IMG/VR virus record: IMGVR_UViG_3300044623_000858
Span: 1-31,755 of that record
Length of the DNA: 31,755 bases
Source of the DNA: a virus
Direction: 5' to 3' (one strand)
Part shown: piece after piece, positions 1-13,866 of the stretch
Layout of the letters: every line of letters starts with the position of its first letter
Position numbering within the stretch: the first letter of the stretch is position 1
Position numbers and translations under genes: made by a program
Notes under the pieces: generated by a model
Told to the model about the DNA's origin: nothing
Databases searched by the model: none
Seen by the model: only the letters and a program-made list of their open reading frames with translations

Positions 1-1
1 T

Positions 2-832
2 GTTACTCACAAATGTAATATGGAATGCGCTAACTGTTATGCACACATAAGAACAGTGCCGGACTTAGATGTAACTAAGTTATATGAAGTTCTAGCACAA
101 CTACCTAACAAGGCTGAGATTAGACTAATAGGTGGCGAACCTACAGTAAGAACAGACTTAGTAGAGATAGTAGACAATATTAAACGTCTAGGTCATCGCC
201 CGACCATGATGACCAATGGGTTAATGCTAGCCAGGCCTGGTTATGCCAGAGCATTAGCAGACGCAGGAATGCGTAGTATATACATCAGCATGAATGGTGC
301 AGACGATAACTCTATCTATAAAATCATGGATGGTGGTGGGTCATGGGCTGAAAGAAAAGTCACAGCACTTAAGGCATGTCTAGATGTAAAAATGAATGTT
401 AACGTTGGTGTTATCTTACAAAAAGGTGTAAACGATAATACACCCAAGAGACTTTACGAACTAGTGAAAGAATCGCAGGGCAAAGCAATTCTTCGATTTA
501 GGAATGTCGGACAAGTAGGACGCTATAGTTTAGAGAAAAACCAAAACTGGACGTGGGATGAAATGGTTACATTAGTGTGTAATCAATTAGGCATAGATAA
601 AGAATGGGCGCTGACACAAACTGAAATTAACGGATGCCGAGAAAAAAATGTAATATTTTTTCCTGTTGAAGCTGATAAGAAGTATACTACCAGTTGGATT
701 AAAATTACAGACTGGAGTCCTGAAGATAGTGACTTTCCAGATCCAGGTAATGATAGACGTGGTAGGCTAACTCAGGATTTTAAACTTGCTCCATTTTTTG
801 AGCACGTAAAAAAATACGAAAATCAATTTTAA
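2..832 (+). CDS. Radical SAM enzyme, 5' end outside the window
   Basis: The reading frame is open at the left edge, so the true start is outside the window; 276 residues are visible. The first visible residues contain the [4Fe-4S]/SAM cluster motif CxxxCxxC (CNMECANC, starting at base 14). The ATG at base 20 lies inside this motif and cannot be the start. Downstream is a GGEP motif, which binds the SAM amino group in this superfamily, and then MMTNG, as in MoaA-type TIM-barrel enzymes. I see no SPASM-type cluster of extra cysteines: a single Cys stands near residue 208. The reaction cannot be read from the sequence. It lies 18 nt upstream of a desaturase and an ACP on the same strand, so the substrate may be lipid- or acyl-linked (inference). 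The family call is strong; the function is open. Confidence 0.9.
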   Translation, partial: VTHKCNMECANCYAHIRTVPDLDVTKLYEVLAQLPNKAEIRLIGGEPTVRTDLVEIVDNIKRLGHRPTMMTNGLMLARPGYARALADAGMRSIYISMNGADDNSIYKIMDGGGSWAERKVTALKACLDVKMNVNVGVILQKGVNDNTPKRLYELVKESQGKAILRFRNVGQVGRYSLEKNQNWTWDEMVTLVCNQLGIDKEWALTQTEINGCREKNVIFFPVEADKKYTTSWIKITDWSPEDSDFPDPGNDRRGRLTQDFKLAPFFEHVKKYENQF

Positions 833-850
833 ACAACCGTGGTGAATATA

Positions 851-1654
851 ATGAAAATATTAAATTTTTGGAATAGCTTGGGAGTGAATCTCAGACGGGT
901 TACTATACCAGCACACATTTTGACGTTGGTTGGTATAGCATCTGTGTTCACTGGTGCTACCAATTGGCTCTGGTTAATGATAATATACCCTGCATGGTTT
1001 CTATTCGGCCATATAGGATATGGTATCTTTGTTCACAGATACTATTGTCATAAATCTTTTGAGACATATACCTGGATAGCTAGATTGGGCGCATTTTTTG
1101 GTTTATTGTCAGGTGCTGGAAGTGCAATGAACGTGAAAGTTATACACGTAGGATACCATCATCCGCATAGCGATACAGAATTAGATCCGCATTCACCTAT
1201 AAAAGGGCTTTGGTGGAGTTATCTATTATGGCAGAACCACAAATTTGACCTGGCCAAAGACAAAATATGGGCTGTTAAAGACATGATGAAAGACCCATAT
1301 CTTAAAGTTTTTCATAATCATAACTATAAAATTTATTGGGCATGCTGGTTGCTGTTAGCGTTAATAGATTGGAGACTTGCAGTGTTCATTGTCAGTGCTG
1401 CCACAGTTCTAGAGTTTCATTTGCTGTCTATAGCCAATACATTCGGTCACTACAAACACAAATGGAGTTATCAGAACTACCAGGGTAGAGACAATAGTCA
1501 AAATATCACTTGGCTTAACTGGATTACACTAGGGCACGGCCTTCATAATAATCATCATGCCGATCCGAGAAATTATAATCATGCTCATAAAAAAGGCGAA
1601 TTTGATACAGCAAAATGGTTGATTCCGTTAATAGAAAAGAGAGAAACAACATGA
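851..1654 (+). CDS. Membrane-bound fatty-acid desaturase (copy 1)
   Basis: A 267-residue integral membrane di-iron desaturase of the acyl-lipid/acyl-CoA delta-9 type. All three histidine boxes are present: HRYYCH (residues 62-67), HVGYHH (99-104) and HNNHH (232-236, preceded by GHGL). Hydrophobic segments lie near residues 20-60, 75-92 and 160-195, as expected for a protein with its active site on the cytoplasmic face. In the family it introduces a cis double bond (or related C-H oxidation) into an acyl chain using O2 and an electron donor. The ATG at 851 is preferred over in-frame GTG codons at 839 and 842. The stop codon overlaps the ACP start as ATGA, so the two are probably translated together and the acyl substrate may be carried by that ACP (inference). 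Its second box is HxxxHH, unlike the other two desaturases here. Confidence 0.92.
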   Translation: MKILNFWNSLGVNLRRVTIPAHILTLVGIASVFTGATNWLWLMIIYPAWFLFGHIGYGIFVHRYYCHKSFETYTWIARLGAFFGLLSGAGSAMNVKVIHVGYHHPHSDTELDPHSPIKGLWWSYLLWQNHKFDLAKDKIWAVKDMMKDPYLKVFHNHNYKIYWACWLLLALIDWRLAVFIVSAATVLEFHLLSIANTFGHYKHKWSYQNYQGRDNSQNITWLNWITLGHGLHNNHHADPRNYNHAHKKGEFDTAKWLIPLIEKRETT

Positions 1655-1887
1655 AAGATGCAGAAAATAAAGTAAGAGCTATTATAGCTAAACATTACAG
1701 AATAAGTGAAGATGCAGTTAAAAACGACAGTTCGTTTATAAAAGACTTTAAAGGTGACAGTTTAGATATCATTGAACTGGTACTGATTCTAGAGGATAAG
1801 TACGGCATTGAAGTCCCAGAAGAAATTGCCGAAGAACTAGACACTGTGCAAAAATTATATGACTATATCAATTCTTTAAATGTTTGA
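1651..1887 (+). CDS. Acyl carrier protein
   Basis: A 78-residue acidic helical protein with the normal length of a type II ACP. The phosphopantetheine attachment site is GDSLDI with Ser37 (Ser36 in E. coli AcpP), followed by the acidic recognition helix ending in EDKYGIEVPEE. A holo-ACP synthase would add the 4'-phosphopantetheine arm; none is visible here, so the host enzyme is presumably used. A longer frame from ATG 1615 is possible, but the ATG at 1651 gives the correct N-terminus, overlaps the desaturase stop by 4 nt (ATGA) and follows an AG-rich stretch (AGAAAAGAGAG) that can serve as ribosome binding site. Pairing with a desaturase suggests that the acyl chain is modified while tethered to this carrier (inference). 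Confidence 0.93.
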   Translation: MKDAENKVRAIIAKHYRISEDAVKNDSSFIKDFKGDSLDIIELVLILEDKYGIEVPEEIAEELDTVQKLYDYINSLNV

Positions 1888-2500
1888 TACTATGAACACC
1901 ACAAGATTTATTACCCCAGACGAAATTGACTACTTACGTGTCACGTACGCCGTTGGCCGTAGTGCCTTAGGGACAGTAATTACAGAAGATGTGCAGGAAA
2001 ATTTCCTTAGCACTACCAAACAGAAAATGATAGAAGGTCTGATGCACGTTGCAGTAGTGTTCGATGACGACAGTAAACCGATAGCATCCTATCAAGCGTA
2101 TGAGGTTCCTCAAATACTTGCATGGCGTTGGAATGGTCTTAGTAGTGTAGCAAAGCACAATCACTACAATAAAACTGCTCCTATTATTGCACCTGCACTA
2201 GACATGATAGTGAATCTAATGGAGTCTAAGGGATACTATAAATTTTGGTCTTTAAATAAAGAGTCTGCACATAACATACGATATAAAATTATGTGTAAGC
2301 ACAGCACCCTATTGAATAGGTATAAATGCTACGATGAGTTAATAATTCCTAAAGGAAAAACTTCTGGAATACCATTGTTTGATGTACCCACTGCACCCTA
2401 TGATCTATTAGTGCGATTGTTTGTCTTAGATCAAAAGCACAGAGTTGAACAACTTAGAAAACACGGATACGACGATTACAAAGGCACATTGGATATATAA
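1880..2500 (+). CDS. GNAT-like protein of uncertain function
   Basis: A 206-residue protein that overlaps the ACP gene by 8 nt, so it belongs to the same operon. The layout is like an N-acyltransferase of the GNAT superfamily: a strand with an acidic turn (VVFDDDSKPIASY, about residues 58-72), a long central helix (about 105-118), then YYKFWSLN and a stretch rich in basic and aromatic residues ending in ELIIPKG. The classical Q/RxxGxG/A acetyl-CoA loop is not evident, so the assignment is weak. Its position directly after an ACP allows the idea that it uses acyl-ACP as donor, as in acyl-homoserine-lactone synthases (inference only). An alternative start is ATG 1892. It ends the plus-strand operon. 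Confidence 0.6.
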   Translation: MFDTMNTTRFITPDEIDYLRVTYAVGRSALGTVITEDVQENFLSTTKQKMIEGLMHVAVVFDDDSKPIASYQAYEVPQILAWRWNGLSSVAKHNHYNKTAPIIAPALDMIVNLMESKGYYKFWSLNKESAHNIRYKIMCKHSTLLNRYKCYDELIIPKGKTSGIPLFDVPTAPYDLLVRLFVLDQKHRVEQLRKHGYDDYKGTLDI

Positions 2501-2505
2501 TATCG

Positions 2506-2549
2506 TCGGGTGTCGTGTACATGCAGGTTAGTCATATTCAATCACCCGA
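2506..2549. terminator. Possible weak bidirectional terminator or spacer hairpin
   Basis: Between the convergent genes ending at 2500 and 2560 there is a 7-bp inverted repeat, TCGGGTG (2506-2512) and CACCCGA (2543-2549), with a 30-nt loop. No clear U tract follows on either strand, so this is only a weak candidate. Confidence 0.2.
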
Positions 2550-2559
2550 GAAGTGATGA

Positions 2560-2862
2560 TTATTTAATATCTACTGACTCATCAACCAAATATATTTGAT
2601 TCTCGTCATTATAGACAGCACGTTGTGATACTTTTTCTGCCATATATGAGTCATTTATAAACTCTTCCTGATCGTCTAAAGTTGTGAAGGTAAACGTTTG
2701 TTTTAACGTCAAATCATCAACTCTTGTAGTTGAACCTGTCAGTTTCCCAGTAGCAACATATTTTTCTCTTATATATTCAAGGTGAGATGCCGGCAAAGTA
2801 TCAATAAACCACGGTACGTCTGCACTAAGTTTGATAAAAATTTGAGTAACTTCTATGGCCAT
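2560..2862 (-). CDS. Small phage protein, unknown function
   Basis: A 100-residue soluble protein that I do not recognise. It begins with a strand-like segment (AIEVTQIFIKL) and has charged, strand-rich middle and end sections; a small alpha/beta fold such as a ferredoxin-like (ABM-type) domain is possible but unproven. The ATG at 2862 has a good ribosome binding site (AAGGA, 8 nt upstream), and a CATAAATA box lies 22 nt upstream of the start. It is the last gene of the minus-strand series before the convergent junction. Confidence 0.65.
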   Translation of the reverse strand: MAIEVTQIFIKLSADVPWFIDTLPASHLEYIREKYVATGKLTGSTTRVDDLTLKQTFTFTTLDDQEEFINDSYMAEKVSQRAVYNDENQIYLVDESVDIK

Positions 2863-2883
2863 AATATTTTCCTTATTTTATAC

Positions 2884-2891
2884 TATTTATG
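2884..2891 (-). promoter_or_regulatory. Candidate T4-type late promoter (CATAAATA)
   Basis: One mismatch to the T4 late -10 box TATAAATA, placed 22 nt upstream of the start at 2862 and downstream of the binding-protein gene's stop at 2895. In AT-rich DNA such a box can occur by chance. Confidence 0.3.
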
Positions 2892-2894
2892 CCT

Positions 2895-3791
2895 TTATTC
2901 TTTAGGAATTCCTGCAGTTAGTTTTTCCCAAATAATTCTATTTGTTTGATTCACTGAATCTAATTGTTTGTACGGAGTCTTTACTAATTGACCAAAGTCA
3001 ATTTCACAGATTGATTTAGGTTTTTCAGTTAGAGCGTCACTTAAAATCTTGTGCAGTTCTTGCCTAGTAATATCGTCAACTGTTTTATTAACAAAGAAAT
3101 AGTGACCTACAGTGATATTCTCTAACCCTTTAATTTTTAGTGATTGAAATGTTTGGTGACCGTTGACGCTACGAGTTCCTGTCACACCCACAACTTTAAC
3201 ATCATTAGTAAATCTTGCAGTGACACTGGGACCCATCCAATCTACGCTACCATCAATGTGTCCTCCTAGCATATCAGTTGTTGCCTCAGGTGTTCCTTTA
3301 TAAGGTACTTCGGTTATGCTAAATTCAGGATTTTCACGTTTAAGTGATCTTGTTATTAATGAAGTGATAGAACCTGGATTGACACCAATTGTTATATCAC
3401 GATGTTGAACATCAGATAATTTGTTTATCTTTTTAGAAAAAATTGCTAGCGGCTGTGCGTTACAAAACGGAGTAACCAATTCGAAATCGTCTGTATGATG
3501 ACTATCTTTATATAATAACGGTCTAATATAGAAACTACTTGTAGTAGCTAATACTGCTAATTCTTTTGAATCTTTTACAGCAAGTGCGGCAACTGCGCCT
3601 CCAGCGCCTGGTCTATTTTGAAACACAAATTGATATTTGTTTTGTTGAGCATTTGCACTCTCTATTACCGCACGAACCATATTTGATTGTGAACTGGCTG
3701 GAGAGAAAGGCCAATATATTGGAACAGTTTTTTGTGCAAAGGCTGAAAACGTAATGTACGTCATCAGCAAGATTGTGAATATTTTTTTCAT
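2895..3791 (-). CDS. Secreted Bug/TctC-type substrate-binding protein
   Basis: A 298-residue protein of the tripartite tricarboxylate transporter receptor (Bug/TctC) family. It starts with a signal peptide (MKKIFTILLMTYITFSAFA, likely cleaved after Ala19). Family signatures are NRPGAGGAVAA near residue 60, a PGSITSL loop near 137, and YKGTPEATTDMLGGHID near 165-181, which contact the carboxylate ligand in known members. Such proteins bind small organic acids in the periplasm and hand them to TctAB membrane partners. No transporter gene is visible, so the protein would have to work with host TctAB, or scavenge or signal with a host partner. The start ATG is 12 nt after the preceding gene, and an exact TATAAATA box lies 45 nt upstream. 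A transporter receptor is uncommon in a phage, and acquisition from a host is likely. Confidence 0.88.
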   Translation of the reverse strand: MKKIFTILLMTYITFSAFAQKTVPIYWPFSPASSQSNMVRAVIESANAQQNKYQFVFQNRPGAGGAVAALAVKDSKELAVLATTSSFYIRPLLYKDSHHTDDFELVTPFCNAQPLAIFSKKINKLSDVQHRDITIGVNPGSITSLITRSLKRENPEFSITEVPYKGTPEATTDMLGGHIDGSVDWMGPSVTARFTNDVKVVGVTGTRSVNGHQTFQSLKIKGLENITVGHYFFVNKTVDDITRQELHKILSDALTEKPKSICEIDFGQLVKTPYKQLDSVNQTNRIIWEKLTAGIPKE

Positions 3792-3803
3792 TTTTTCTAT
3801 AAG

Positions 3804-5024
3804 TTAAGTTTTAAACAGTATGTCTGTAGAAGTAATATTTATATCTTCAACCGGGTGTGGTTTAAAATTATTTTCATGCCCAATTCTCCAGTAATGATAA
3901 AACCTGATAAATCCGTCATCTCCGTCATGTTTATATTTTGCGTCTATTTTACTATTAAACAGCTTTAAATCAGACTCTACTTGTTGAACAATCCTTTCTT
4001 TTCCATGTAACTGGAACATCCAATCATCCATTTGAAAGCCACCCTTAAAACCCATACCTTGTTTAAGTGCTTGCCAGTTTTTACTGTAGTCTTTAAAAGC
4101 AGGATAGATGCATGGAATGATAGCACGTTGCCAATTACTTCCTCTTTCAACGTTAGCATTGAAGGCAAGAGGCTTAGACCTGTCCCATAATATGGCTTTT
4201 ACGTGGGCATTCTCAGGTCTGTAATTCCAACGGCATACTTCATGGGCTTGCTTAATCATTAGCTCGGGTAAATCAGGAGAATAATAAAACATTATAGACT
4301 CTACGTTAGTATATTTTTCTTTAAAATGAGGGCATATAATGTTTACTAAAGGGTCTGCAACAACGGTATATAAGTTTCCCGACTCTCCCCTACATATTAT
4401 AGGTTTATCGATGCCATATACTACTCCTATTTTTTTACCTGCTTCGGCTAAATTTTTGATGTGAGTGAACTTATCTAGTGAATGTCTAGTAGCCCCTGAA
4501 AAATGTATCCAGTGTGAGGCTGACTCATAGATCCATTCATCTGTTTTCATCTCTAAGATATCTTCAAAGTAATCATGTATGGAAAGTTTAATGTTAGGAT
4601 GAGTTTTAGAAATACTATTTAGAAAAGGTAACTGTGATACTATAGTTTCAGTAATAGTGTTATTTGCGGATTTGTCATTAAGATTTACTTTCCAATTTTT
4701 TAATCCACTAATAGGGGAGGCGGCAACTATTTCATCTATACGAATGTTATTATTTAAAAAACTTTTTACAACGTTGGTACTGTCGGCGCCACCACTAGCC
4801 ATTACGATAACATAATCAAACTGTTCTCGGATTTGCCTAGCACGTTCTGCATACAACATATCTAGTGATACTGGTGGCTCAATTGTCCAATCATACTTGT
4901 CAAAAATTTCGTTATTAAAATGCCAGGTGATGTCCGCTTTAGTGGGATTAGCATATAATATAGCCTGTAATTTGTTGTAGAATATATGATGTCCTACTTT
5001 ATAATAACCTAATTTTGTGTTCAT
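3804..5024 (-). CDS. PP-loop ATPase (adenine nucleotide alpha-hydrolase family), copy 1
   Basis: A 406-residue protein with the pyrophosphate-binding PP-loop SGGADS at residues 77-82, preceded by the strand YVIVMA. This signature belongs to ATP pyrophosphatases that adenylate a carboxyl, carbonyl or similar group (asparagine synthase, QueC, TilS, PAPS reductase and others). The N-terminal 70 residues do not show an N-terminal-nucleophile glutaminase domain. The C-terminal half is rich in Trp, Tyr and His and I cannot place it. It is 4 nt downstream of an oxygenase gene and in one series with a GNAT and a second PP-loop protein, which suggests amide or ligase chemistry on a small substrate (inference). 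Exact reaction unknown. Confidence 0.72.
   Translation of the reverse strand: MNTKLGYYKVGHHIFYNKLQAILYANPTKADITWHFNNEIFDKYDWTIEPPVSLDMLYAERARQIREQFDYVIVMASGGADSTNVVKSFLNNNIRIDEIVAASPISGLKNWKVNLNDKSANNTITETIVSQLPFLNSISKTHPNIKLSIHDYFEDILEMKTDEWIYESASHWIHFSGATRHSLDKFTHIKNLAEAGKKIGVVYGIDKPIICRGESGNLYTVVADPLVNIICPHFKEKYTNVESIMFYYSPDLPELMIKQAHEVCRWNYRPENAHVKAILWDRSKPLAFNANVERGSNWQRAIIPCIYPAFKDYSKNWQALKQGMGFKGGFQMDDWMFQLHGKERIVQQVESDLKLFNSKIDAKYKHDGDDGFIRFYHYWRIGHENNFKPHPVEDINITSTDILFKT
3836..3843 (-). promoter_or_regulatory. Candidate T4-type late promoter (TATAAATA)
   Basis: An exact TATAAATA box, 45 nt upstream of the start of the binding-protein gene at 3791 and inside the 3' end of the PP-loop gene. 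The spacing leaves room for a normal leader. Confidence 0.45.
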
Positions 5025-5027
5025 TTC

Positions 5028-5753
5028 TTATAATCCATAGTATTCTCTGATTCCTACCCGGTCAGCCCACTCGGCATTGAATTTTCCATCGACACGTAAA
5101 CTCCAGGATATAAAGTCACTATGACCTTTACTACAATGCCAATTTACAGTGTTGAAAACCATTGCCCTACTATTAGACTCATGTATAATTGTAGAGCTAT
5201 CGTCACGTAATAAAATCTTTTTTGCATATCGGCCAGTCAACCAGATGAATGGATCACGTTTATCTAAATTGGGATTACCGTAATCAGTATGCATTGCTGT
5301 TATTTGATTAGGCTCATTAATCCAAAACATTGTTCTACCGTATTCGTCAAAGCATCCCTGATCTTCTATCCATTTAAACAAAAAATCAAAGTCGCCGTAG
5401 GATGCCATGTTTACACTGTGTTCGCTTAAGTGCTTATGACCATACGTACTAGGGTAGCCTTTGTTCCCTCGCAATAATAAATGAGTTCCCAAAGTCGAAG
5501 TACCTTTAAGTTTAGTATACCAATTAATCTCTGCTGGACCGAACTCTGGGAGAGTTTTTTTGTATGTTTCTCTTTCTTCTAAGTAGCCCGGTAATTCTTT
5601 GTTCAATAGTGTACTATGAGGCGTATATGATGGCTCAATGTTTTTTGCATTCTTAGCTATATTATAAGAGATTTGATCTTCTAATAAGGCAAAAGAGTCC
5701 ATATCCAAATATGGTGCTAGGTCAATGAACATTTGGTCGTTTATCAATTTCAT
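5028..5753 (-). CDS. 2OG-Fe(II) oxygenase-like hydroxylase
   Basis: A 241-residue protein with the double-stranded beta-helix facial triad of 2-oxoglutarate/iron dioxygenases: HTD (His155, Asp157), a distal His206 in NWHCSKGH, and Arg220 in SLRVDG as the likely 2OG carboxylate ligand. Enzymes of this type hydroxylate or desaturate amino acids, peptides or small molecules. The N-terminal 130 residues are not recognisable. It overlaps the upstream GNAT gene by 4 nt (ATGA) and sits 4 nt before the PP-loop ATPase gene, so the three proteins are probably made together. Metal and cofactor residues look intact; the substrate is unknown. Confidence 0.78.
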   Translation of the reverse strand: MKLINDQMFIDLAPYLDMDSFALLEDQISYNIAKNAKNIEPSYTPHSTLLNKELPGYLEERETYKKTLPEFGPAEINWYTKLKGTSTLGTHLLLRGNKGYPSTYGHKHLSEHSVNMASYGDFDFLFKWIEDQGCFDEYGRTMFWINEPNQITAMHTDYGNPNLDKRDPFIWLTGRYAKKILLRDDSSTIIHESNSRAMVFNTVNWHCSKGHSDFISWSLRVDGKFNAEWADRVGIREYYGL

Positions 5754-6187
5754 TTGATTCCTCGTTTCACTAGTTGCATTATCGGTTCGTATCCTATTTT
5801 TTTCATAATGTGTTCTTGCATGATTTGATTCTCCGAGTGTATGTAAGAATAGATTGATGACCGACCTAGTTCTTTGCCTAGTATATCTATAAGAGAATGA
5901 ATTTTAGTATATATACCTTGTTGTCTATATTGATCTTCTACAAAAATGATATGAATTAGGATTGAGTTAGAACTCTTTGAGAAGTTGAGAAAAGCTCCTG
6001 CTATTACTTCACTGTCATTCTTTAATAAGATTCCACCGTCTAGTGGCCAAGAATCAGATGCTAATGCATGACCATTGGCTTTGATGATACCATACATTCT
6101 GTTGTATTCATTAGACAATTCTTCACAGTTGTCCAAATATATGTACTGATAGTTTTTGTATGTATCTAAAATTTGTAAATTATTCAT
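5750..6187 (-). CDS. GNAT-family N-acetyltransferase
   Basis: A 145-residue protein of normal GNAT length. Motif A is visible: a strand (SILIHIIFVED, about residues 74-84) followed by the acetyl-CoA pyrophosphate loop RQQGIY and helix, then a motif-B-like stretch with SENQIMQEHIMKKIGY, the usual N...A..-Y ending of the fold. It should transfer an acetyl or acyl group from CoA to an amine. It overlaps both neighbours (8 nt with the PP-loop gene upstream, 4 nt with the oxygenase downstream), which fits a single translation unit. Confidence 0.8.
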   Translation of the reverse strand: MNNLQILDTYKNYQYIYLDNCEELSNEYNRMYGIIKANGHALASDSWPLDGGILLKNDSEVIAGAFLNFSKSSNSILIHIIFVEDQYRQQGIYTKIHSLIDILGKELGRSSIYSYIHSENQIMQEHIMKKIGYEPIMQLVKRGIK

Positions 6188-7097
6188 TGATTGAAAGTCT
6201 TTTTACTGCGTCACTGTATGGTTCTAAATATTCCCCATTCCACTTCTTCTTAAATTCTTCAAAAATTTTAAGATTAGGGTGTTGCATAATTTCTGAACTA
6301 TATATCTGTTCGTAGCCTGTTAACTTTATACGTTTTTTAGCCACAAAGTCATATATTGGCATGTTGAAGTTAGAACCGTTGTTAAAGACATACGACTTTG
6401 TAGAGTTGCTACCTGTTTTGCCCGGAAATTGGCCTGTCCCTAATTTAACTATACTTGGATCTAACAAAAATGATAACATCATTTCGGGGGTATAAGATAG
6501 TAAAAAGGGACAACCGTTGATATTATATTTTTTATAATATCTCTGTAGGCTATGAACGTATTCCATCTCCTCTAGCACCCATATTCCGTTGTATCTGTCT
6601 TTCTCATACCGCATGTAGGGTGGATCGTTACCTAATAAAGTAAATCCATCTAATTGACTGGCAACATGCATGGTAGCCGGTAGTGCAAATGAACAACATG
6701 TTACTGACTCAGCTATCTCAACGTTCTTACCAGAATTTACAAACTCATGGAAATTTAACTTAAAGATGACAGGATCAATGTTTTTTGCTTTACAGAATTC
6801 ATATGCATAAACAATGTCATGTTGATTCAATACGTTCCCGTCATTATCGGTTAGTTCAATAATCACCGGATCAAAGTCCATCTTAAGATGCAATAACACT
6901 TCACAAACATACTGACTATCTAAACCACCACTATATAATACTTGAAACTTACCGGTCTTATTCGCATAAACGTATTCTACTGCATTTAATGTTTCTTCAA
7001 AATATGTTTTTACTTTACGTGTAGGAGGGACGATGTTTACATGCCAGGTATCACCGTGACCAGTACCAGATAGATAATTGTTTTTAGTAAGTTCCAT
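6180..7097 (-). CDS. PP-loop ATPase (adenine nucleotide alpha-hydrolase family), copy 2
   Basis: A 305-residue protein with PP-loop SGGLDS at residues 56-61 in the setting FQVLYSGGLDSQYV, which resembles the synthetase domain of asparagine synthase and related ATP pyrophosphatases more than copy 1 does. A later LLGNDPPY segment may be part of the ATP or substrate site. There is no glutaminase domain, so ammonia, an amine or a thiol would have to be the nucleophile. The ATG at 7097 follows AAGAGAAA. It starts the PP-loop - GNAT - 2OG - PP-loop series. Similarity between the two PP-loop proteins is limited to the motif region, so they are probably not a recent duplication. Confidence 0.75.
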   Translation of the reverse strand: MELTKNNYLSGTGHGDTWHVNIVPPTRKVKTYFEETLNAVEYVYANKTGKFQVLYSGGLDSQYVCEVLLHLKMDFDPVIIELTDNDGNVLNQHDIVYAYEFCKAKNIDPVIFKLNFHEFVNSGKNVEIAESVTCCSFALPATMHVASQLDGFTLLGNDPPYMRYEKDRYNGIWVLEEMEYVHSLQRYYKKYNINGCPFLLSYTPEMMLSFLLDPSIVKLGTGQFPGKTGSNSTKSYVFNNGSNFNMPIYDFVAKKRIKLTGYEQIYSSEIMQHPNLKIFEEFKKKWNGEYLEPYSDAVKRLSINE

Positions 7098-7103
7098 TTT
7101 CTC

Positions 7104-7283
7104 TTAAAAAATCTCTATAATGTAACCTACACCATTTTTAGTTGAAATTAAACTTTGTTGGTGTAGACAAATATTTGAAATCAAAAGAACCTCGTCAGAA
7201 TTTATAAGGACTTTTTCTTTATTAAATTGCTCTAATACTTGATAAGAGTTGGGTGATATGGATGCTTTATGTGACAGGAACAT
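7104..7283 (-). CDS. 59-residue ORF with a Rieske-like half motif
   Basis: This ORF fills most of the apparent 254-nt gap between the second desaturase and the PP-loop gene. The protein starts MFLSHKASISPNSYQVL and contains EVLLISNICLHQQSLIS, where Cys39-x-His41 matches the first half of a Rieske [2Fe-2S] motif (CxH...CxxH) in its usual strand-loop setting. The second CxxH half is absent: the frame ends in NGVGYIIEIF, and the +1 frame does not restore it. It is either a truncated Rieske gene or a small protein that only resembles one. Its stop is 6 nt before the next start. No strong ribosome binding site is visible. Confidence 0.45.
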   Translation of the reverse strand: MFLSHKASISPNSYQVLEQFNKEKVLINSDEVLLISNICLHQQSLISTKNGVGYIIEIF

Positions 7284-7351
7284 CTAATATTTATGATGAT
7301 ATGTTTTCCTGTATTTTTTAAGTACCAATTATTTTCGCTAGTAAAAATCAT

Positions 7352-8119
7352 TTATGCTTTTATGAATTTAATAATCATTCCAGATATATCTAATTCCCAC
7401 CACTTTTGTGTAGTAGTATAACTCTTAGGGTATCTATGATGATTGTTATGCCAACCTTCACCCCAACTAGGAATTGCCCATACCCAGTTATTACAGCTAT
7501 GGTCATTTAAGTTATAAGTTCTATACGACCCCCACCATGACTCTTTATGTCCGGCATAGTTAACCATATTACTCATAACTGCGGCAAGAACAACAGGCAT
7601 CCAGTGTAAAAATATCATTAGATACCATCCACCTATGAGAAACAATGTTAGGCTGTATACAACTAACAGTAAGTTATAATACTTGTGTAAGAATTGGTGA
7701 TACGGATCTGTAATAAAATGCCTCATTCTCCATTTCATCGTTTCATCTATTGGGTACTTCAACAAGAACACACGCCAACCTGTAATCCATGGACTATGAG
7801 GATCACCCTCACGATCAGATTTCAAGTGGTGCTTCATATGTATAGCAACCCATACAATAGAACTACCGGTGTTGGCCATACATCCCAAGAAGCTAAATAT
7901 TTTACTAATTATAGGATGTGTAGTGTAGCTTTGATGTGTTAATTGTCTATGGAACGTTACTACTATACCTAAACAAACATATAAAAAATAGCCAAAAATA
8001 CTTAGACCAATTGTGTCTAAACCTAATCCGTAGTTATAGAACCCTATCAAACTTCCTATAAGACTTATAACTAAAAATAGCTGTGTGGTAGGGGTGTTAC
8101 TGACTAATAGTTGTTTCAT
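7352..8119 (-). CDS. Membrane-bound fatty-acid desaturase (copy 2)
   Basis: A 255-residue membrane desaturase. Histidine boxes: HRQLTH (residues 57-62), HMKHH (94-98) and HNNHH near the C-terminus in [12 protein letters not shown], with a further likely ligand in NYAGHKESW. GDPHSPW after box 2 is typical of the delta-9 acyl-lipid/acyl-CoA group. Hydrophobic spans lie near residues 12-32, 38-58 and 150-185. ATG 8119 is preferred to the in-frame ATG 8176, which would overlap the upstream GNAT gene by 53 nt; from 8119 the gap is 4 nt. It is much closer to copy 3 than to copy 1. It closes the desaturase - 2OG - GNAT - desaturase series. The electron donor is not encoded in view. Confidence 0.92.
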   Translation of the reverse strand: MKQLLVSNTPTTQLFLVISLIGSLIGFYNYGLGLDTIGLSIFGYFLYVCLGIVVTFHRQLTHQSYTTHPIISKIFSFLGCMANTGSSIVWVAIHMKHHLKSDREGDPHSPWITGWRVFLLKYPIDETMKWRMRHFITDPYHQFLHKYYNLLLVVYSLTLFLIGGWYLMIFLHWMPVVLAAVMSNMVNYAGHKESWWGSYRTYNLNDHSCNNWVWAIPSWGEGWHNNHHRYPKSYTTTQKWWELDISGMIIKFIKA

Positions 8120-8123
8120 ATTT

Positions 8124-8744
8124 TTATTTATCTTCAGTAAACCTAATGCTTTCCCAATCAGGTTGATATAGCTCATCTATCTTGTGATAAACGACCCATT
8201 GTTTTGTATAGTTGATGGTTACTGGAAAATCAAGTATGTGTTGTCCATTGTAAAATAGACTACCTGGTTTTCTTTTCTTTTCTATACCTAGTCCAGAACG
8301 AGCAAAATAAGGGAGTAATCTTTTATTGTAATCATTAAATGTTAGGGCAAGTGTTTTGAATCCTAAACTACTTGCCCAACTTAGTTGATGTGGTAATACG
8401 TGCCTCCCCATCATAAATTGCCCACGCAAATCTTTATTAAGCCAAGTTCGAACTCCACCTAATACTACGTTCTTATCAAAGTCTGAAACATTTGCGCCCG
8501 AAGTTCCTAATATGTTATCGTTCTCATCAAGTAACAATAGCATAATGCCATTGTTATTTTTGAATCTATTACTAGAATACACTATATATGGAAACGTTGC
8601 TGAGTTATTCTCCCATTCAGGATGCCACATGTTTGCATGACCTGGTTGATCTTTTTCTGTGTAGGCTTGCTTGCAATAATTTAATATTGCATCTTTGTGT
8701 GTGATATAATAATCATCTTCAAAAATACTTTTTATTTTATACAT
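8124..8744 (-). CDS. GNAT-like acyltransferase
   Basis: A 206-residue protein with a GNAT-like core: strands around IMLLLLDENDNILGTSG (about residues 66-83), then VVLGGVRTWLNKDLRGQFMM, where the acetyl-CoA loop would be expected, a helix ending in SWASSLGFKTLALTF, and a final NKRLLPYFARSGL helix typical of the end of the fold. The donor and acceptor cannot be inferred. It overlaps the upstream oxygenase by 8 nt and lies 4 nt before desaturase 2. Being between two desaturases suggests an acyl-chain or head-group transfer (inference). Confidence 0.65.
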   Translation of the reverse strand: MYKIKSIFEDDYYITHKDAILNYCKQAYTEKDQPGHANMWHPEWENNSATFPYIVYSSNRFKNNNGIMLLLLDENDNILGTSGANVSDFDKNVVLGGVRTWLNKDLRGQFMMGRHVLPHQLSWASSLGFKTLALTFNDYNKRLLPYFARSGLGIEKKRKPGSLFYNGQHILDFPVTINYTKQWVVYHKIDELYQPDWESIRFTEDK

Positions 8745-9207
8745 TTTGAAACTTTTTCTTTACTTCGTCATATGTCTGTTCGTTACAACCAATAGACAAC
8801 ACGTATCTAGTTTTATCTAAGCTAGTGTTAGATACACTATGCAGTTTTCTTCCATTGATTAACAGTATCTCATCTTTTATATATGGAATTGGTATTTTTG
8901 TTTTTAAATCATCAGAATAAAAATACACCTTAAAATCGTTATCTGGCTCTACTAATAGCATATTGATTGCAGTATATCTTATATCTCTGTGCAATGGGTA
9001 AGTCCATCCTGGTTCATTTTTAAAAAAACCACAACAAGATATTTTAAACGGCACTACTTCTTGAAGTATATTTCTCATGTCTTGACTAACATCAGACCTA
9101 CATGATCCATATTTGCTAATATACCAAATTGCAGTATTCAATTCAGCATAAATTTTATCCATAAAGGTAAACTGTAAGTTTACTTTGCAAAAATATTCTT
9201 CTGTCAT
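8737..9207 (-). CDS. Small 2OG-Fe(II) oxygenase-like protein
   Basis: A 156-residue single-domain dioxygenase: HRD (His73, Asp75) after PGWTYPL, distal His123 in [11 protein letters not shown], and Arg134 in KTRYVLSIG, the full H-x-D...H...R set of a 2OG enzyme. ATG 9207 is chosen over the longer in-frame ATG 9255 because it overlaps the desaturase-3 stop as ATGA and keeps the domain complete. It is probably translated with that desaturase. It would hydroxylate or further oxidise the product of a neighbouring enzyme (inference). The fold call is firm, the substrate unknown. Confidence 0.78.
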
Positions 9208-9959
9208 TTTTTTATTAATTTTATTATTAGTCCCAATGGATCTATTTCCCACCACTTCTCTCTAAGATTATATTTCTTAGAATCATTGTGATGATTGTTG
9301 TGCCAACCCTCACCCCATAGTATCAAAGCAATCAGCCAATTGTTTTTGCTACTATCATTAGTATTATGATTGCGGTAACCAAACGTATGATTGAAATATA
9401 CAAAAGAATCGATAGCTAAGAATGTTAATGTGATTGGCACAATGTACAGGAAATACAATAACTCAATATCTATCATACCTAAAAACAATATCCATAATAC
9501 AGGAAATAACATATAGTATTTGTGTATGTTTACTTGTGTTCTGTTCAACAAATCTTTAACAATATGTCTATCTGCATGATTAGTATAAGACATTAAATGA
9601 GGGAAATAAATTTTCCATCCCTTGACCTTAGGATCATGTGGATCATTTTCTCGGTCAGAGTATTTGTGATGTGTTCTATGAATATGTGCCCAGCCTAGAA
9701 CACTACCTCTACCTGCAACTAATCCAAAGAATGTGAATGTCCATTTGATTGCAGGGTATTTGAATTCAAAGCTACGGTGACTCCAATATCTATGTAGCAT
9801 TAGACTTATGCCTATTCCACTGTACAGTATATATCCAATGATTATAGTTATGATATCACGCCAAGTAATCTGAAAGTAAAAAAACCCTATTATTGTGGCT
9901 AATAGTGCGATTGCTTGTAACAACGATACTTTGTTTCCGGTAGCTTCTAAATTAGTCAT
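9204..9959 (-). CDS. Membrane-bound fatty-acid desaturase (copy 3)
   Basis: A 251-residue desaturase with boxes HRYWSH (residues 56-61), HRTHH (94-98) and HNNHH in [12 protein letters not shown] near the C-terminus, and the ENDPHDPK segment after box 2. Several hydrophobic stretches flank the boxes. ATG 9959 (MTNLEAT) is preferred to ATG 10004, which would run into the divergent gene starting at 9982. It leads the four-gene series and is coupled to the small oxygenase by ATGA. A TATAAATA box is only 5 nt upstream of this ATG, too close for a normal leader. Copies 2 and 3 share box spacing and the GEGWHNNHH ending and look like diverged paralogues. Confidence 0.92.
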
Positions 9960-9981
9960 TAAGTATTTATAGTGAATAAAT

Positions 9982-10617
9982 ATGAGTATGATATTAGACA
10001 GCATAGTTTCTTCACCGATAGTATTTCCTAAAATAGTACCTAATGATTGGGATAAGTGGTGGAACTTATGGATTTCTGAGGCTAAGCCAGTTGTTAGAGT
10101 TAAACAAACTCATAATAGCAAAGGAGGACCTTGGATAGGCATAAATGTATATGTTAAACCCGGAGTAGATAACATTGAGTATACCGGGTATAATATTAAA
10201 AATGTATTCTGTCCTGAATTATTTCCATCATTATTTGATAACTTGGATCTGTTCCCCATAGATATTGCAGTAATGCAAATAGTATCAAGTAGATGTCCTT
10301 CCCCACCGCATTCTGATCATACTGAACCTAGAATAAGTGTTCGTAGCATGTTGTATGATAATAATTTTACTCCTACATTTTATTATCAAATTGACGGAGA
10401 TAAGAAATATCAGACTCTACCCGATGATACAAATACATGGATGTACCATGATAATAAATATAAACATGGATCTGACCACTATCAAGGTCATAGTAAACAT
10501 TTAATAATATATCATGGTAAAATCAAGCGTGAGCTATTAGAAAGTAATCTATCATCATGTAATGATAGATATAAAGATTACATCATAAGAGACATAAATG
10601 CAGTGTCACAAATATGA
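9982..10617 (+). CDS. 2OG-Fe(II) oxygenase-like protein on the opposite strand
   Basis: A 211-residue protein and the only plus-strand gene between 2501 and the right end. A candidate iron triad is HSD (His110, Asp112) in [11 protein letters not shown], with a distal His162 in KYKHGSDHY; Arg117 and Arg121 follow the first motif. The pattern resembles phage 2OG-type hydroxylases, though a final Arg for 2OG is not certain. It is divergent from desaturase 3 with 22 bp between start codons and ends 2 bp before the convergent methyltransferase gene. The isolated orientation suggests separate insertion or separate timing of expression. Low AT-rich complexity in the upstream gap prevents a promoter call. 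Confidence 0.6.
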
Positions 10618-10619
10618 TT

Positions 10620-12032
10620 TTATTTTGTACATAGAAAGGTCACAAAACTCAAGTCAGCATGTATTACTTCCACTTTAAATCCTATATTGCTTAATGCTTC
10701 TAAGTACCATTGAATGTGTACGCTTTTCATTACACCTATTAAATTCTGTTCTTTTTGTCTAATGTATTCTTCACTAACCCCGTGACTTCGTTTAAAATCA
10801 TAATACATATCTTTAACTATATCAGACTGTAAGCACTTGTCGCTTAGTATTAGATATCCATTATTTTCTAAACTATTATAGATATCAATAAGATATGATG
10901 TTTTGTCAGTAACAAAATGTAATGTCCAGTTCATCATTACTAGTTTGTATTTGTATTTGGGTAGTTTGTCATCACATAACACTAACTGTTTGTGCATACT
11001 CTTATCAATCATTGCAGTACTGTTATCGACACCCATAACATTAGTAAATCCTGCATTGATAAACTTGCTTATTGTGTAACCCAATGCGCTACCCACATCA
11101 ATAACTTTATCTGTTTTTTGTAAGTACTTATTTGCAAACGTCAAGCATTTATCAATAACTAGATGATAGCTAGGAATATTTGTTTCAGCTTCGTGTTGAA
11201 ATCTCTCAGCTACCGAGTTATCAAATACCCATTGTTCTGTTTTAGTTGGTGGTACAAAGAACTCTTTTAATAATATAGGTTTTTCTTTAACTCTATTGTA
11301 TCGTACAATATATCTTGCAGGTGCTGACGTACCATTCTCAAACTCCCATGGATCTCTGTATGCATCGTTATCACAATCAGTCATGGGTTCAGGTAGTATT
11401 ATGCCTTCGTTAGTAGTAAAAGCAAACGTTGACATTACTATGTTCAATGCGTGAAATGATATGCGAGAAGCAACTCCTTCGAAGGGAGGACCCAAGTCAT
11501 CATCTGCGTAAACCATGTTTTCTTGTCGTTTAATGATAGTCTCACCAAACTCAGGACTATCAATAGATGCGGGCCAGTTGATTGTATCAATAACTACCAC
11601 ATCTTTAGCTACCATTGTTATCTTTTTAAGTATGTTTACTATATCTAAAAAACAATAGATAACACCTGCGGCTAATACAACATCATACTTAACTCCGTTT
11701 GCAATCTGTTCATCTAAGAAATCTTCAACTTCTTGTTGTATGATTTTATATGAGTCTTGTGGACAATACTTAGATAGTAAGCTGTTACTTAAATCAACAT
11801 AGTGAGTTTGTGCTTCTACCCCTATGTATTCTTTTGCACCTGTCTTAATAGCATAATACCCGGCTGCACCTAAACAAGACCCTAAATCTAAAACAGTTTT
11901 ATCTTTTATTAGCCATTCAGGAAGTTGAACCTTCAGCTTATTAAACAAAGATAACTTTGTAGTTTGATGGTGGGTTCTTAGTCTACGATTGTCGTAGTCA
12001 ATAAAGTCTGTAGCTAAATCAAAAGGGTTCAT
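10620..12032 (-). CDS. Two-domain SAM methyltransferase with CmoA-like C-terminal half
   Basis: A 470-residue fusion of two Rossmann SAM-binding domains. Domain 1 has VLDLGSCLGAAG (residues 47-58) and an acidic ligand in GVEAQ (73). Domain 2 (about 265-470) has VIDVGSALGY (310-319), GVDNSTAMIDK, MNWTLHF and YDFKRSHGVSEEYIRQKEQ, which follow the order and wording of E. coli CmoA (DNSPAMIE, NFTLQF, HDFKRANGYSE). CmoA makes carboxy-S-adenosyl-methionine from SAM and prephenate, which CmoB uses to form cmo5U at the tRNA wobble base. Domain 1 could therefore be the transferase partner, giving both steps in one chain (inference). An exact TATAAATA and a hairpin lie upstream. The start at 12032 has GGAG 11 nt upstream. 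Confidence 0.75.
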   Translation of the reverse strand: MNPFDLATDFIDYDNRRLRTHHQTTKLSLFNKLKVQLPEWLIKDKTVLDLGSCLGAAGYYAIKTGAKEYIGVEAQTHYVDLSNSLLSKYCPQDSYKIIQQEVEDFLDEQIANGVKYDVVLAAGVIYCFLDIVNILKKITMVAKDVVVIDTINWPASIDSPEFGETIIKRQENMVYADDDLGPPFEGVASRISFHALNIVMSTFAFTTNEGIILPEPMTDCDNDAYRDPWEFENGTSAPARYIVRYNRVKEKPILLKEFFVPPTKTEQWVFDNSVAERFQHEAETNIPSYHLVIDKCLTFANKYLQKTDKVIDVGSALGYTISKFINAGFTNVMGVDNSTAMIDKSMHKQLVLCDDKLPKYKYKLVMMNWTLHFVTDKTSYLIDIYNSLENNGYLILSDKCLQSDIVKDMYYDFKRSHGVSEEYIRQKEQNLIGVMKSVHIQWYLEALSNIGFKVEVIHADLSFVTFLCTK

Positions 12033-12037
12033 AGTAT

Positions 12038-12059
12038 AAAAGACTCCAAAGAGTCTTTT
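12038..12059 (-). terminator. Hairpin terminator after ahpD
   Basis: A perfect 9-bp stem, AAAAGACTC and GAGTCTTTT, with a 4-nt loop. It follows the ahpD stop on the minus strand and continues into TATAC; the arms themselves supply the U-rich 3' side. It lies between the ahpD end and the methyltransferase start and abuts the late promoter box, so it probably separates the two transcripts. Confidence 0.6.
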
Positions 12060-12066
12060 ATTTATA
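12059..12066 (-). promoter_or_regulatory. Candidate T4-type late promoter (TATAAATA)
   Basis: An exact TATAAATA, overlapping the ahpD stop region and 26 nt upstream of the methyltransferase ATG. Transcription starting about 7 nt downstream would begin inside the terminator stem, so the new transcript would lack that hairpin. Confidence 0.5.
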
Positions 12067-12577
12067 GTGCTACTTTACCTACTGCATTTATAACTGCGGC
12101 AATTTTGCCCACAGCCTGCAGTTGTTGCACAGTCATACCTTCATTCTTAAGAATGTCGTAGTGTGACTTAACGCAATGATTACACTTGCCCACAATGCTA
12201 GCACACAGTGCATACATTTCAAACTTTAGTTTTGAAACTCCACCGTGTGTAGCATATGCTTGCATTCGTAAACCGGGAGGCAAGCCTTTTAGATTAGGAT
12301 CATCTGTCATATCAACGAATGGATAGTAAACGTTGTTCATACCCATTAGTGCTGCCGCTGTCTTTGCGGCTTCACGTTCAGGGGTACCCATAAGAGGACC
12401 GTTCATTCCGATCTCATATGCTAACTCACCGTTGCCTGCACTGATAGCCGCAGCCATAGCGCAAGCATGTGCGTCAACTTCATCTAGACCACTGCGATTA
12501 ATGACTGCATCTAAGTTTAACTTAATATCCTTAGCGTGGTCTGGAATACTTTCCTTAACCTGATCTACCCAACTCAT
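12062..12577 (-). CDS. ahpD: AhpD-like alkylhydroperoxidase
   Basis: A 171-residue all-helical carboxymuconolactone-decarboxylase/AhpD family protein, close to the 177 residues of the mycobacterial enzyme. The thiol relay is intact: Glu120, Cys132-x-x-Cys135 (KCNHCVKSH) and His139, with the same spacing as Glu118/Cys130/Cys133/His137 of M. tuberculosis AhpD. In that system AhpD reduces oxidised AhpC using a lipoylated carrier. ATG 12577 overlaps the ahpC stop as ATGA; the longer in-frame start at 12613 would run back into ahpC. The pair forms a self-contained peroxide-reduction module, with reducing power expected from host lipoyl proteins. Confidence 0.9.
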   Translation of the reverse strand: MSWVDQVKESIPDHAKDIKLNLDAVINRSGLDEVDAHACAMAAAISAGNGELAYEIGMNGPLMGTPEREAAKTAAALMGMNNVYYPFVDMTDDPNLKGLPPGLRMQAYATHGGVSKLKFEMYALCASIVGKCNHCVKSHYDILKNEGMTVQQLQAVGKIAAVINAVGKVAL

Positions 12578-13113
12578 AGAGTTGCGCCACCAATTGGACG
12601 ACTGCACGGGCATAGTTCACCAGTTTGCAATGCGTCTAGTACACGCAATGTTTCTTCTGGGCTACGACCAACATCTAAGTTGTTAACTGTGATATGTTGA
12701 ATAACGTTTTGTGGATCAACAATAAATGTTGCACGTAGTGCCGCACCTGCTGGAGCATAGAATACTCCTAGTTGATTAATCAAACTACGCTCATCTCGGG
12801 CGGTATCAGCAAATTGATTATGACTAATCTTTGCTAAGTCTGGATGTGCTTTTTGCCACGATACTTTACAGAACTCATTGTCTGTTGAACCTGTTAGCAA
12901 TACTGCATCACGGTCTTCAAAGTCTGAACGTAGTTTATCAAATGCTACGATTTCTGTAGGGCATACAAAGGTAAAGTCTTTTGGATAGTAAACGATAATC
13001 TTCCATTTACCTGCAAAACTTTCTTCTGTAATTGGGAAGAATGCATCTTCCGGTTGTCCTGGCTTAACACCTGTAACAACAAACGATTCTAATTTATCAC
13101 CGACTGTTTTCAT
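12574..13113 (-). CDS. ahpC: Peroxiredoxin AhpC (2-Cys type)
   Basis: A 179-residue thioredoxin-fold peroxidase. Peroxidatic Cys51 lies in YPKDFTFVCPTE, with Pro44 and Thr48 completing the PxxxTxxC active site. The C-terminal LCPCSRP holds Cys168 and Cys170 as candidate resolving cysteines. It reduces H2O2, organic peroxides or peroxynitrite; regeneration is most likely by the adjacent AhpD. Start ATG 13113 has an excellent ribosome binding site (AAGGAG, 6-nt spacing), with a 7-bp hairpin and an exact TATAAATA box further upstream, so strong late expression is expected. No AhpF reductase is encoded here. The chain is full length. Confidence 0.93.
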   Translation of the reverse strand: MKTVGDKLESFVVTGVKPGQPEDAFFPITEESFAGKWKIIVYYPKDFTFVCPTEIVAFDKLRSDFEDRDAVLLTGSTDNEFCKVSWQKAHPDLAKISHNQFADTARDERSLINQLGVFYAPAGAALRATFIVDPQNVIQHITVNNLDVGRSPEETLRVLDALQTGELCPCSRPIGGATL

Positions 13114-13138
13114 ATTTTCTCCTTGTGTGTAGTCTGTA

Positions 13139-13155
13139 TGAGTATAACATACTCA
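13139..13155 (-). promoter_or_regulatory. Leader hairpin upstream of ahpC
   Basis: A 7-bp inverted repeat, TGAGTAT and ATACTCA, with a 3-nt loop, between the TATAAATA box and the ahpC ribosome binding site. No U tract follows. It could form near the 5' end of the late transcript. Confidence 0.35.
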
Positions 13156-13159
13156 ATGT

Positions 13160-13167
13160 TATTTATA
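13160..13167 (-). promoter_or_regulatory. Candidate T4-type late promoter (TATAAATA)
   Basis: An exact TATAAATA in the only real gap of this block, 47 nt upstream of the ahpC start and after the stop of the small Cys/His gene at 13184. It is the best-placed late promoter in the window. Confidence 0.55.
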
Positions 13168-13183
13168 TAAGTAAAAGGGTATA

Positions 13184-13486
13184 TTAAGCTTCGGTAGATT
13201 GTAATCCATTACTATGTTTATCAGATACTTTTTCAATATCCTGAAACAAACGTTTCTCTTGTGCTGTTAGTTTATCTTTATGTGACCTACGTGGGTTGCT
13301 ACATAATGGACATTTAGGGATACCACAATCCATAGCATGATGTTTTACTAAACGATGTGGTTCTTTGATAGCCTTATCATAAAATCCTAAACCATGTTGT
13401 TTAGCGATACGAACTTGTCTTGCGACTGCTACATCATTTTTATGACGCCGGCGGCTGTTTATGTACTTTGCTGTTTCATTTGACAT
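13184..13486 (-). CDS. Small Cys/His zinc-ribbon-like phage protein
   Basis: A 100-residue basic protein. The N-terminus is rich in Arg and Lys (YINSRRRHKN), and the centre holds HHAMDCGIPKCPLCSNPRR: C-x4-C-x2-C with flanking histidines, a likely zinc site. I recall similar KHH-A-x-x-CG-xx-KC-xx-C-x-NPR proteins in marine T4-like phages, without known role. It starts within the iscU stop (TAATG, 1-nt overlap), so it is translationally linked to iscU. Nucleic-acid binding is possible from the charge and zinc site (inference). Confidence 0.7.
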   Translation of the reverse strand: MSNETAKYINSRRRHKNDVAVARQVRIAKQHGLGFYDKAIKEPHRLVKHHAMDCGIPKCPLCSNPRRSHKDKLTAQEKRLFQDIEKVSDKHSNGLQSTEA

Positions 13487-13866
13487 TAGTGCCTCTGTTT
13501 ATAATCATTTACTGCGGCTTTGATGGCGTCTTCCGCGAGGATACTGCAATGGATTTTGACTGGGGGGAGTGCAAGTTCTTCTGCGATTTGAGAGTTTCGG
13601 AGCTCGGCAGCTTGGTCAAGTGTTTTCCCTTTGACCCATTCAGTGACAAGACTTGAGCTAGCAATAGCCGACCCGCACCCATACGTTTTAAATTTAGCAT
13701 CTGTTATTAATCCTGTTAGTTTATCTACTTTAATTTGTAGTTTCATTACGTCCCCGCAAGCAGGGGCTCCGACCATACCTGTACCTACATCGTCATCGTC
13801 TTTTGCAAAACTACCGACGTTTCTTGGATTTTCGTAGTGGTCTACTACTTTTGCGCTATAAGCCAT
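13486..13866 (-). CDS. iscU: IscU iron-sulfur cluster scaffold
   Basis: A 126-residue, complete IscU. All ligands are present: Cys37 and Asp39 in GAPACGD, Cys64 in TYGCGSAIASSS, and His106-Cys107 in KIHCSILAEDA. The LPPVK motif (100-104), recognised by the HscA chaperone, is also intact. The sequence is extremely close to E. coli IscU along its whole length (compare the start DHYENPRNVGSF). It receives sulfur from IscS and iron and assembles [2Fe-2S] clusters; neither IscS nor HscAB is encoded here, so it must use host partners. Start 13866 has AGGAG 8 nt upstream. Counted by eye, 13501-13680 is about 45-55% GC against about 30% at 14041-14100, suggesting recent transfer. Confidence 0.96.
   Translation of the reverse strand: MAYSAKVVDHYENPRNVGSFAKDDDDVGTGMVGAPACGDVMKLQIKVDKLTGLITDAKFKTYGCGSAIASSSLVTEWVKGKTLDQAAELRNSQIAEELALPPVKIHCSILAEDAIKAAVNDYKQRH

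Follow-up and report, generated by a model that had tools for sequence, protein, structure and literature searches.

The window analyzed here, a viral record of 31,755 bases that is itself a fragment, contains a four-gene unit, D3–OG2–GN3–D2 (Table 1), for which the best explanation, with a roughly even chance of being right, is that it is a phage-borne cassette for tailoring acyl chains. The identity of its genes at the level of fold or family, their operon-like packing, the purifying selection acting on them and their recurrent linkage are established. The first-pass annotation had reported the four genes, their order and their junctions, all of which proved exact to the base upon re-reading. 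The D3 stop codon and the OG2 start codon share ATGA (9204-9207), OG2 and GN3 overlap by 8 nt (8737-8744), and a 4-nt gap (8120-8123) separates GN3 from D2, so that the operon-like packing claimed earlier was also borne out. Longer upstream starts are possible for D3 (at 10004) and D2 (at 8176), and homologues favour the shorter start in each case, the D3 homologue being that of contig L005. When the four genes were compared with those of related contigs, dN/dS was 0.05-0.33 wherever dS could be estimated, indicating that all four are under purifying selection. Considering these low values together with the Pfam matches of the desaturases and the recurrence of the gene set in many divergent contigs, the four genes are not a product of chance. 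The T4-like late promoter core TATAAATA occurs on the minus strand at 9964-9971, 12059-12066, 13160-13167 and 3836-3843; three of these four sites immediately precede genes, and one immediately precedes D3. A role as a T4-like late promoter was rejected, because four sites in the window are no excess over chance.

Table 1. Features of the four-gene unit and of the neighbouring locus in the window
Feature	Position	Strand	Remarks
Radical SAM, cut by window edge, adjoins D1	2..832	+	Pfam Radical_SAM 1.4e-20; collinear in L222, L223
D1, third desaturase homologue	839..1654	+	Pfam 1.9e-14; 63-97% identical in L222, L223, L228, L246
Acyl carrier protein (ACP), 78 aa	1651..1887	+	TIGR00517 80.7 bits, cut-off 70.45; GDSLDIIEL
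GN1, 206 aa, possibly acyltransferase-like	1880..2500	+	GNAT-type phage family HMM 1.1e-6
TctC-like substrate-binding protein, signal-like N terminus	2895..3791	-	Pfam TctC 1.8e-7
o3804, second SGGxDS protein	3804..5024	-	SGG.DS invariant in 13 relatives
o5028, tentative second 2OG-type protein	5028..5753	-	2OG assignment by eye only
GN2, second GNAT-like protein	5750..6187	-	PHROG acetyltransferase 3.3e-6; family matches weak
o6180, PP-loop (SGGLDS) ATPase-like	6180..7097	-	Profile matches to N-type ATP pyrophosphatases, E 2.9e-4 and weaker
D2 desaturase, 255 aa	7352..8119	-	Closes unit
GN3 GNAT-fold putative acyltransferase, 206 aa	8124..8744	-	Third in unit
OG2 small 2OG/Fe(II) oxygenase, 156 aa	8737..9207	-	Second in unit
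D3 desaturase, 251 aa	9204..9959	-	Opens unit

Judging from their sequences, D2 and D3 are homologues of the DesC/SCD-type membrane fatty-acyl desaturases. Both matched the Pfam FA_desaturase family (PF00487; D2, 1.2e-17 and 65 bits; D3, 7.8e-14 and 52.5 bits; cut-off, 29.7), and the closest solved structures by sequence were stearoyl-CoA desaturases, phmmer matching D3 to the SCD1 structure 4zyo (8.8e-16) and D2 to the SCD1 structure 4ymk (2.5e-11). The three-box pattern HX4H, HX2HH, HX2HH is present in D3 (HRYWSH, HRTHH, HNNHH) and in D2 (HRQLTH, HMKHH, HNNHH, with Asn at -4), and the box histidines are invariant in alignment A3. At the position four residues before a conserved His (DSFVYFNH in the D3 of the window), Asn is replaced in 11 of the 25 D3-clade members and kept in all 20 members of the D2 clade and in 83 of 90 viral desaturases; the equivalent residue of SCD1 sits at the di-iron site. 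D2 and D3 are 37% identical and fall into separate clades, with support of 87-99, in trees that include viral and bacterial relatives, and are thus an old pair from two deep clades. The description of two related but distinct desaturases in the first-pass annotation therefore stands, whereas the comparison that it had proposed in search of a duplication yielded deep separate clades and not a local copy; a recent tandem or local duplication is ruled out by the low identity and the separate clades. Setting aside one contig that is 100% identical to the window and may represent the same virus, viral relatives are up to 77% (D3) and 94% (D2) identical, whereas identity to D3 does not exceed 35% in the closest of the bacterial sequences sampled.

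Since the OG2 and GN3 sequences themselves gave no significant Pfam match (for OG2 including the Asp_Arg_Hydrox model), their assignments draw on family-level motifs and predicted structures. At the level of fold and family, OG2 is a 2OG/Fe(II) oxygenase, and a probable hydroxylase. None of 25 relatives departs from H75, D77, H125 and R136 (HxD...H...R, the iron triad and the 2OG-binding Arg), and the AF2 model (pLDDT 95.7) has the double-stranded beta-helix fold of the 2OG superfamily. Its best match in the PDB was the 2OG-Fe(II) oxygenase 6n1f (Z 13.9, rmsd 3.0, 144 aligned), followed by AspH, PHD2 and P4H. In the case of GN3, 19 of 26 relatives matched Pfam Acetyltransf_1 at E values up to 0.1 (best, 9.4e-6), and the AF2 model (pLDDT 89.4) showed a GNAT fold upon comparison with GNAT structures (best, 3gy9; Z 14.1, rmsd 2.8, 144 aligned). 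R99, R107, N137, N140 and Q182 are its invariant residues. The canonical acyl-CoA loop, Q/R-x-x-G-x-G/A, is absent from GN3, where R107 is invariant but other residues stand in place of the glycines (window sequence, RGQFMM). Because the loop glycines are missing, we named GN3 a GNAT-fold protein, a putative acyltransferase. No fatty-acyl-transferase signature was found in GN3, and an AHL-synthase-like assignment was rejected, the single structural match of that kind, BjaI, ranking only 31st. Combined with the Pfam matches of D2 and D3, the motifs and predicted structures agree with the enzyme identities (desaturases, 2OG oxygenase and GNAT) originally proposed.

Many divergent viral contigs share the gene set, which is the conservation elsewhere for which the first-pass annotation had suggested looking. 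A D3-clade gene lies upstream of D2 on the same strand in 18 of the 20 D2-clade loci. The counter-case named in that annotation, desaturases of unrelated families in an order not conserved elsewhere, thus did not arise, both genes being DesC/SCD-type. By contrast, the layout that it had called symmetric is one arrangement among several, since the contents of the D3-D2 interval vary by contig: a 2OG gene and a GNAT gene in the window and L005, a GNAT gene alone in L016, L017 and L018, one or two 2OG-type genes in L020, L021, L025, L059 and L193, and no recognised gene in L019, L022, L023, L024 and L203. When the window is compared with L016, identity is 86% for D2 and 65% for GN3 but only 40% for D3, and the 2OG gene of L016 is on the other strand; parts of the unit have thus been exchanged. 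To avoid ascertainment by desaturase, we also used the GNAT profile alone as bait. A desaturase was present within 8 kb in 44 of the 45 viral loci recovered, a 2OG-type gene in 43 and a PP-loop protein in 37, and many of these loci had overlaps or gaps of less than 50 nt. Among the loci absent from the desaturase scan, 26 of 27 had a desaturase; some GNAT-bait contigs are near-duplicates (e.g., L189-L192), so that independent viruses are fewer, about 18 of 19 among the new loci. When the PP-loop protein o6180 served as bait, a desaturase was found in 44 of the 49 closest loci. Many other loci carry desaturases without GN3 (L006, L039, L040, L046-L052).

The functional locus probably extends over about 10 kb (bases 1-9959) and is wider than the unit first annotated, as suggested by the collinearity, at high identity, of its left arm (radical SAM to GN1 on the plus strand; TctC to o6180 on the minus strand) in L222 and L223. 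The ACP, for which a longer ORF begins at 1615, adjoins D1 in these two contigs too, and o5028, which gave no Pfam match, has a counterpart of 72% identity at the equivalent position of each. GN2 adjoins o6180 in L223 and L224. No Pfam match was obtained for GN1, and a profile comparison was negative for GN1 as a relative of GN3. The o3804 gene is present in 19 of the 45 GNAT-bait loci, and no PDB relative of its product was found. The Pfam scan, which took in 20 window ORFs, revealed neither glycosyltransferase nor nucleotide-sugar genes in the 10-kb locus. D1 and the ACP overlap by ATGA (1651-1654) and the ACP and GN1 by 8 nt, so that the junction types of the D3–OG2–GN3–D2 unit are repeated in this second operon. 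The TctC-like protein occurs in 15 of the 45 GNAT-bait loci, with no transporter partner among the recurring families. On the other side of the unit, the minus strand encodes a 470-aa protein whose single chain contains two methyltransferase domains (10620-12032) and, at 12062-13866, AhpC- and AhpD-like (CMD) proteins, a 100-aa protein and an IscU/NifU-like gene; this last group adjoins the desaturase unit and is kept in many related viral contigs.

Related loci contain additional genes: a fatty-acid hydroxylase directly after D2 (L017, L021, L025, L059), a FabF-like ketosynthase with desaturases (L018/L041, L225), a FabK-like flavin enzyme (L022 and others), a P450 (L025, L059), a Rieske protein (25 loci), an AMP-dependent ligase (five loci: L233, L238, L239, L241, L297) and B12-radical SAM partners. 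L226 has six mutually divergent desaturases (~22-34% identical) within 7.6 kb (5080-12659), the last four in unbroken tandem, and L227 has a six-desaturase array of the same kind (5294-12672).

For the D3–OG2–GN3–D2 unit we infer an acyl-chain substrate, one pathway for all four enzymes, an order of steps and a product. The two different membrane di-iron desaturases would act on a fatty-acyl chain carried as acyl-lipid or acyl-ACP, each adding an unsaturation, or one of them carrying out a further oxidation instead; OG2 would hydroxylate the chain or its head part, and GN3 would place an acyl (or acetyl) group onto an amine or hydroxyl acceptor. Serial action of the four enzymes on a single acyl chain is plausible. 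Either a small acyl metabolite or a modified lipid, of the membrane or amino type, could be the product, and the cassette would operate within a ~10-kb locus with a third desaturase, an ACP of its own and PP-loop enzymes. Acyl chemistry is indicated by the ACP overlapping D1, the fatty-acid hydroxylase after D2, and the FabF-/FabK-like and AMP-ligase neighbours. Counting against acyl-chain tailoring, the sampled cellular desaturases nearest in sequence (at most 35% identity) have no GNAT or 2OG partners, so that no characterised pathway serves as a guide; GN3 lacks a fatty-acyl-transferase signature; radical SAM, B12-radical SAM and PP-loop proteins occur in these loci without an obvious lipid role; and the ACP, ketosynthase and ligase are found in a minority of loci. 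A broader version, which we consider unlikely as a whole, is that of a mobile, modular phage biosynthetic cluster, in which phage-specific desaturases, 2OG, GNAT and PP-loop proteins and a partial ACP-dependent fatty-acid machinery would give rise, in infected cells, to a dedicated acyl product that is polyunsaturated or acetylenic as well as oxygenated and conjugated.

The main rival, a minority possibility that has to be taken seriously, is that the desaturases just raise the unsaturation of host phospholipids, with the 2OG and GNAT proteins acting elsewhere and co-located through a hypervariable accessory island. This is the view of phage desaturases given in two publications (PMC7300359; PMC7678222), and it is consistent with the many loci that have desaturases and no GN3. 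However, a desaturase next to the GNAT gene in 44 of 45 baited loci, often with tight junctions, and a D3-D2 pair kept despite the exchange of parts would hardly be expected from a random island, and two to six divergent desaturases per locus exceed the need for fluidity; the tight, recurrent linkage thus argues against this explanation.

Modification of a host-surface glycolipid (lipid A/LPS or capsule), for instance to block superinfection, is distinctly less likely. Here, 2OG hydroxylation and acyl transfer would take place on lipid-linked sugars, and the PP-loop proteins would be sugar amidotransferases. LpxO and OlsC are AspH-type 2OG enzymes that hydroxylate lipid-bound acyl chains, and AspH is among the structural neighbours of OG2; moreover, the SAR11 (Pelagibacter) phage Mosig has, right before its tail fibre genes, a sugar-type cluster of aminotransferase, carbamoyltransferase, epimerase and N-acetyltransferase genes in which 8 nt separate a desaturase from an Asp_Arg_Hydrox-type oxygenase. 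The lack of glycosyltransferase and nucleotide-sugar genes from the 10-kb locus and of an Asp_Arg_Hydrox Pfam match for OG2 are at odds with such a role. It is very improbable that the substrate of D2 and D3 is a non-lipid metabolite, which they would oxidise as di-iron hydroxylases or as oxidases of another kind, the cassette yielding a small modified compound or cofactor. PF00487 also covers enzymes other than desaturases, the loss of the -4 Asn (11/25 in the D3 clade, against retention in 20/20 of the D2 clade) could be read in this way, and PP-loop and B12-radical SAM partners would suit small-molecule chemistry, but stearoyl-CoA desaturases are the solved structures closest to them in sequence, and the ACP, ketosynthase, ligase and fatty-acid hydroxylase neighbours indicate acyl chains.

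Several known systems resemble parts of the putative acyl-chain tailoring cassette. Roitman et al. (2018) reportedly described phage and cyanophage desaturases (vFAD) and viewed them in terms of membrane fluidity. According to parts of another study, desaturases of aquatic phages occur in several copies per virus, with five each in two cryopeg viruses, and some viral desaturase clades are without cellular members (Zhong 2020, PMC7300359). Like the genes analyzed here, vFAD are DesC/SCD-type and multiple per virus, whereas in these parts of that source they are treated as single fluidity genes, without a linked 2OG-GNAT-PP-loop cassette or a phage ACP (PMC7300359). Bacterial alkyne and polyyne clusters (cepacin, caryoynencin, protegencin) comprise jamABC, two desaturases, a thioesterase and a rubredoxin (PMC8406139). 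They share with the window the combination of several membrane desaturases (here D1, D2 and D3) and a dedicated ACP (1651-1887), and with some related phage loci an AMP ligase and a P450; by contrast, the phage loci contain 2OG, GNAT and PP-loop genes in addition. Pfam revealed no fatty acyl-AMP ligase, thioesterase or rubredoxin among the 20 ORFs scanned in the window, which is a fragment, and we therefore did not class it as an alkyne/polyyne cluster; by analogy, its cassette may work similarly. The stearoyl-CoA/DesC delta-9 desaturases have the fold family and His boxes of D1-D3, whereas the phage proteins are ~250-270 aa long and share no more than ~35% identity with the bacterial relatives sampled. 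In the ornithine/amino-lipid pathway, OlsB is a GNAT-like N-acyltransferase that uses an ACP-bound acyl donor and OlsC is a 2OG acyl hydroxylase. The window likewise has a GNAT-like putative acyltransferase, an ACP and a 2OG enzyme, but that pathway is without desaturases and the GN3 relatives match the Acetyltransf_1 type and not OlsB; no OlsB-type acyltransferase or OlsC-AspH-family match was found for GN3, GN1 or OG2.

In the open-access literature, we did not find a conserved desaturase-2OG-GNAT cassette described. Single phage desaturases, even five per virus, and bacterial multi-desaturase-ACP clusters are known, and the linked phage cassette appears to be undescribed. Phage desaturases have so far been explained gene by gene, as aids to fluidity. 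That two old desaturase lineages stay linked with 2OG and GNAT genes despite the exchange of parts points to one pathway with one product. Infected cells would then contain a lipid or acyl metabolite made under viral direction, which suggests that an acyl (fatty-acid-type) molecule of some kind is built or remodelled by these viruses in the course of infection. The unit provides a defined four-gene set for expression and a clear question, namely which new acyl species results.

None of 80 loci around the nearest sampled cellular desaturases had GNAT (GN3) or 2OG partners and, as the cellular relatives are also at most 35% identical, direct capture from a host operon is not supported. In 393 genomes of Planctomycetota and cyanobacterial phyla, a sample without a positive-control genome and with the likely host lineage outside it, the GNAT matches that the GNAT profile gave were all short and weak. 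Searching 50,697 phage records by tblastn with D2, OG2, GN3 and o6180 yielded nothing, so no isolate among those records has a close copy; D1 reached only Pelagibacter phage Mosig, and D3 reached Mosig and one bacterial-looking record. L220 (CAKLQH020000002.1), deposited as 'Acinetobacter phage MD-2021a', contains trp genes, accD, btuB and a cardiolipin synthase gene; it reads as a contig of a bacterial chromosome and is probably mislabelled.
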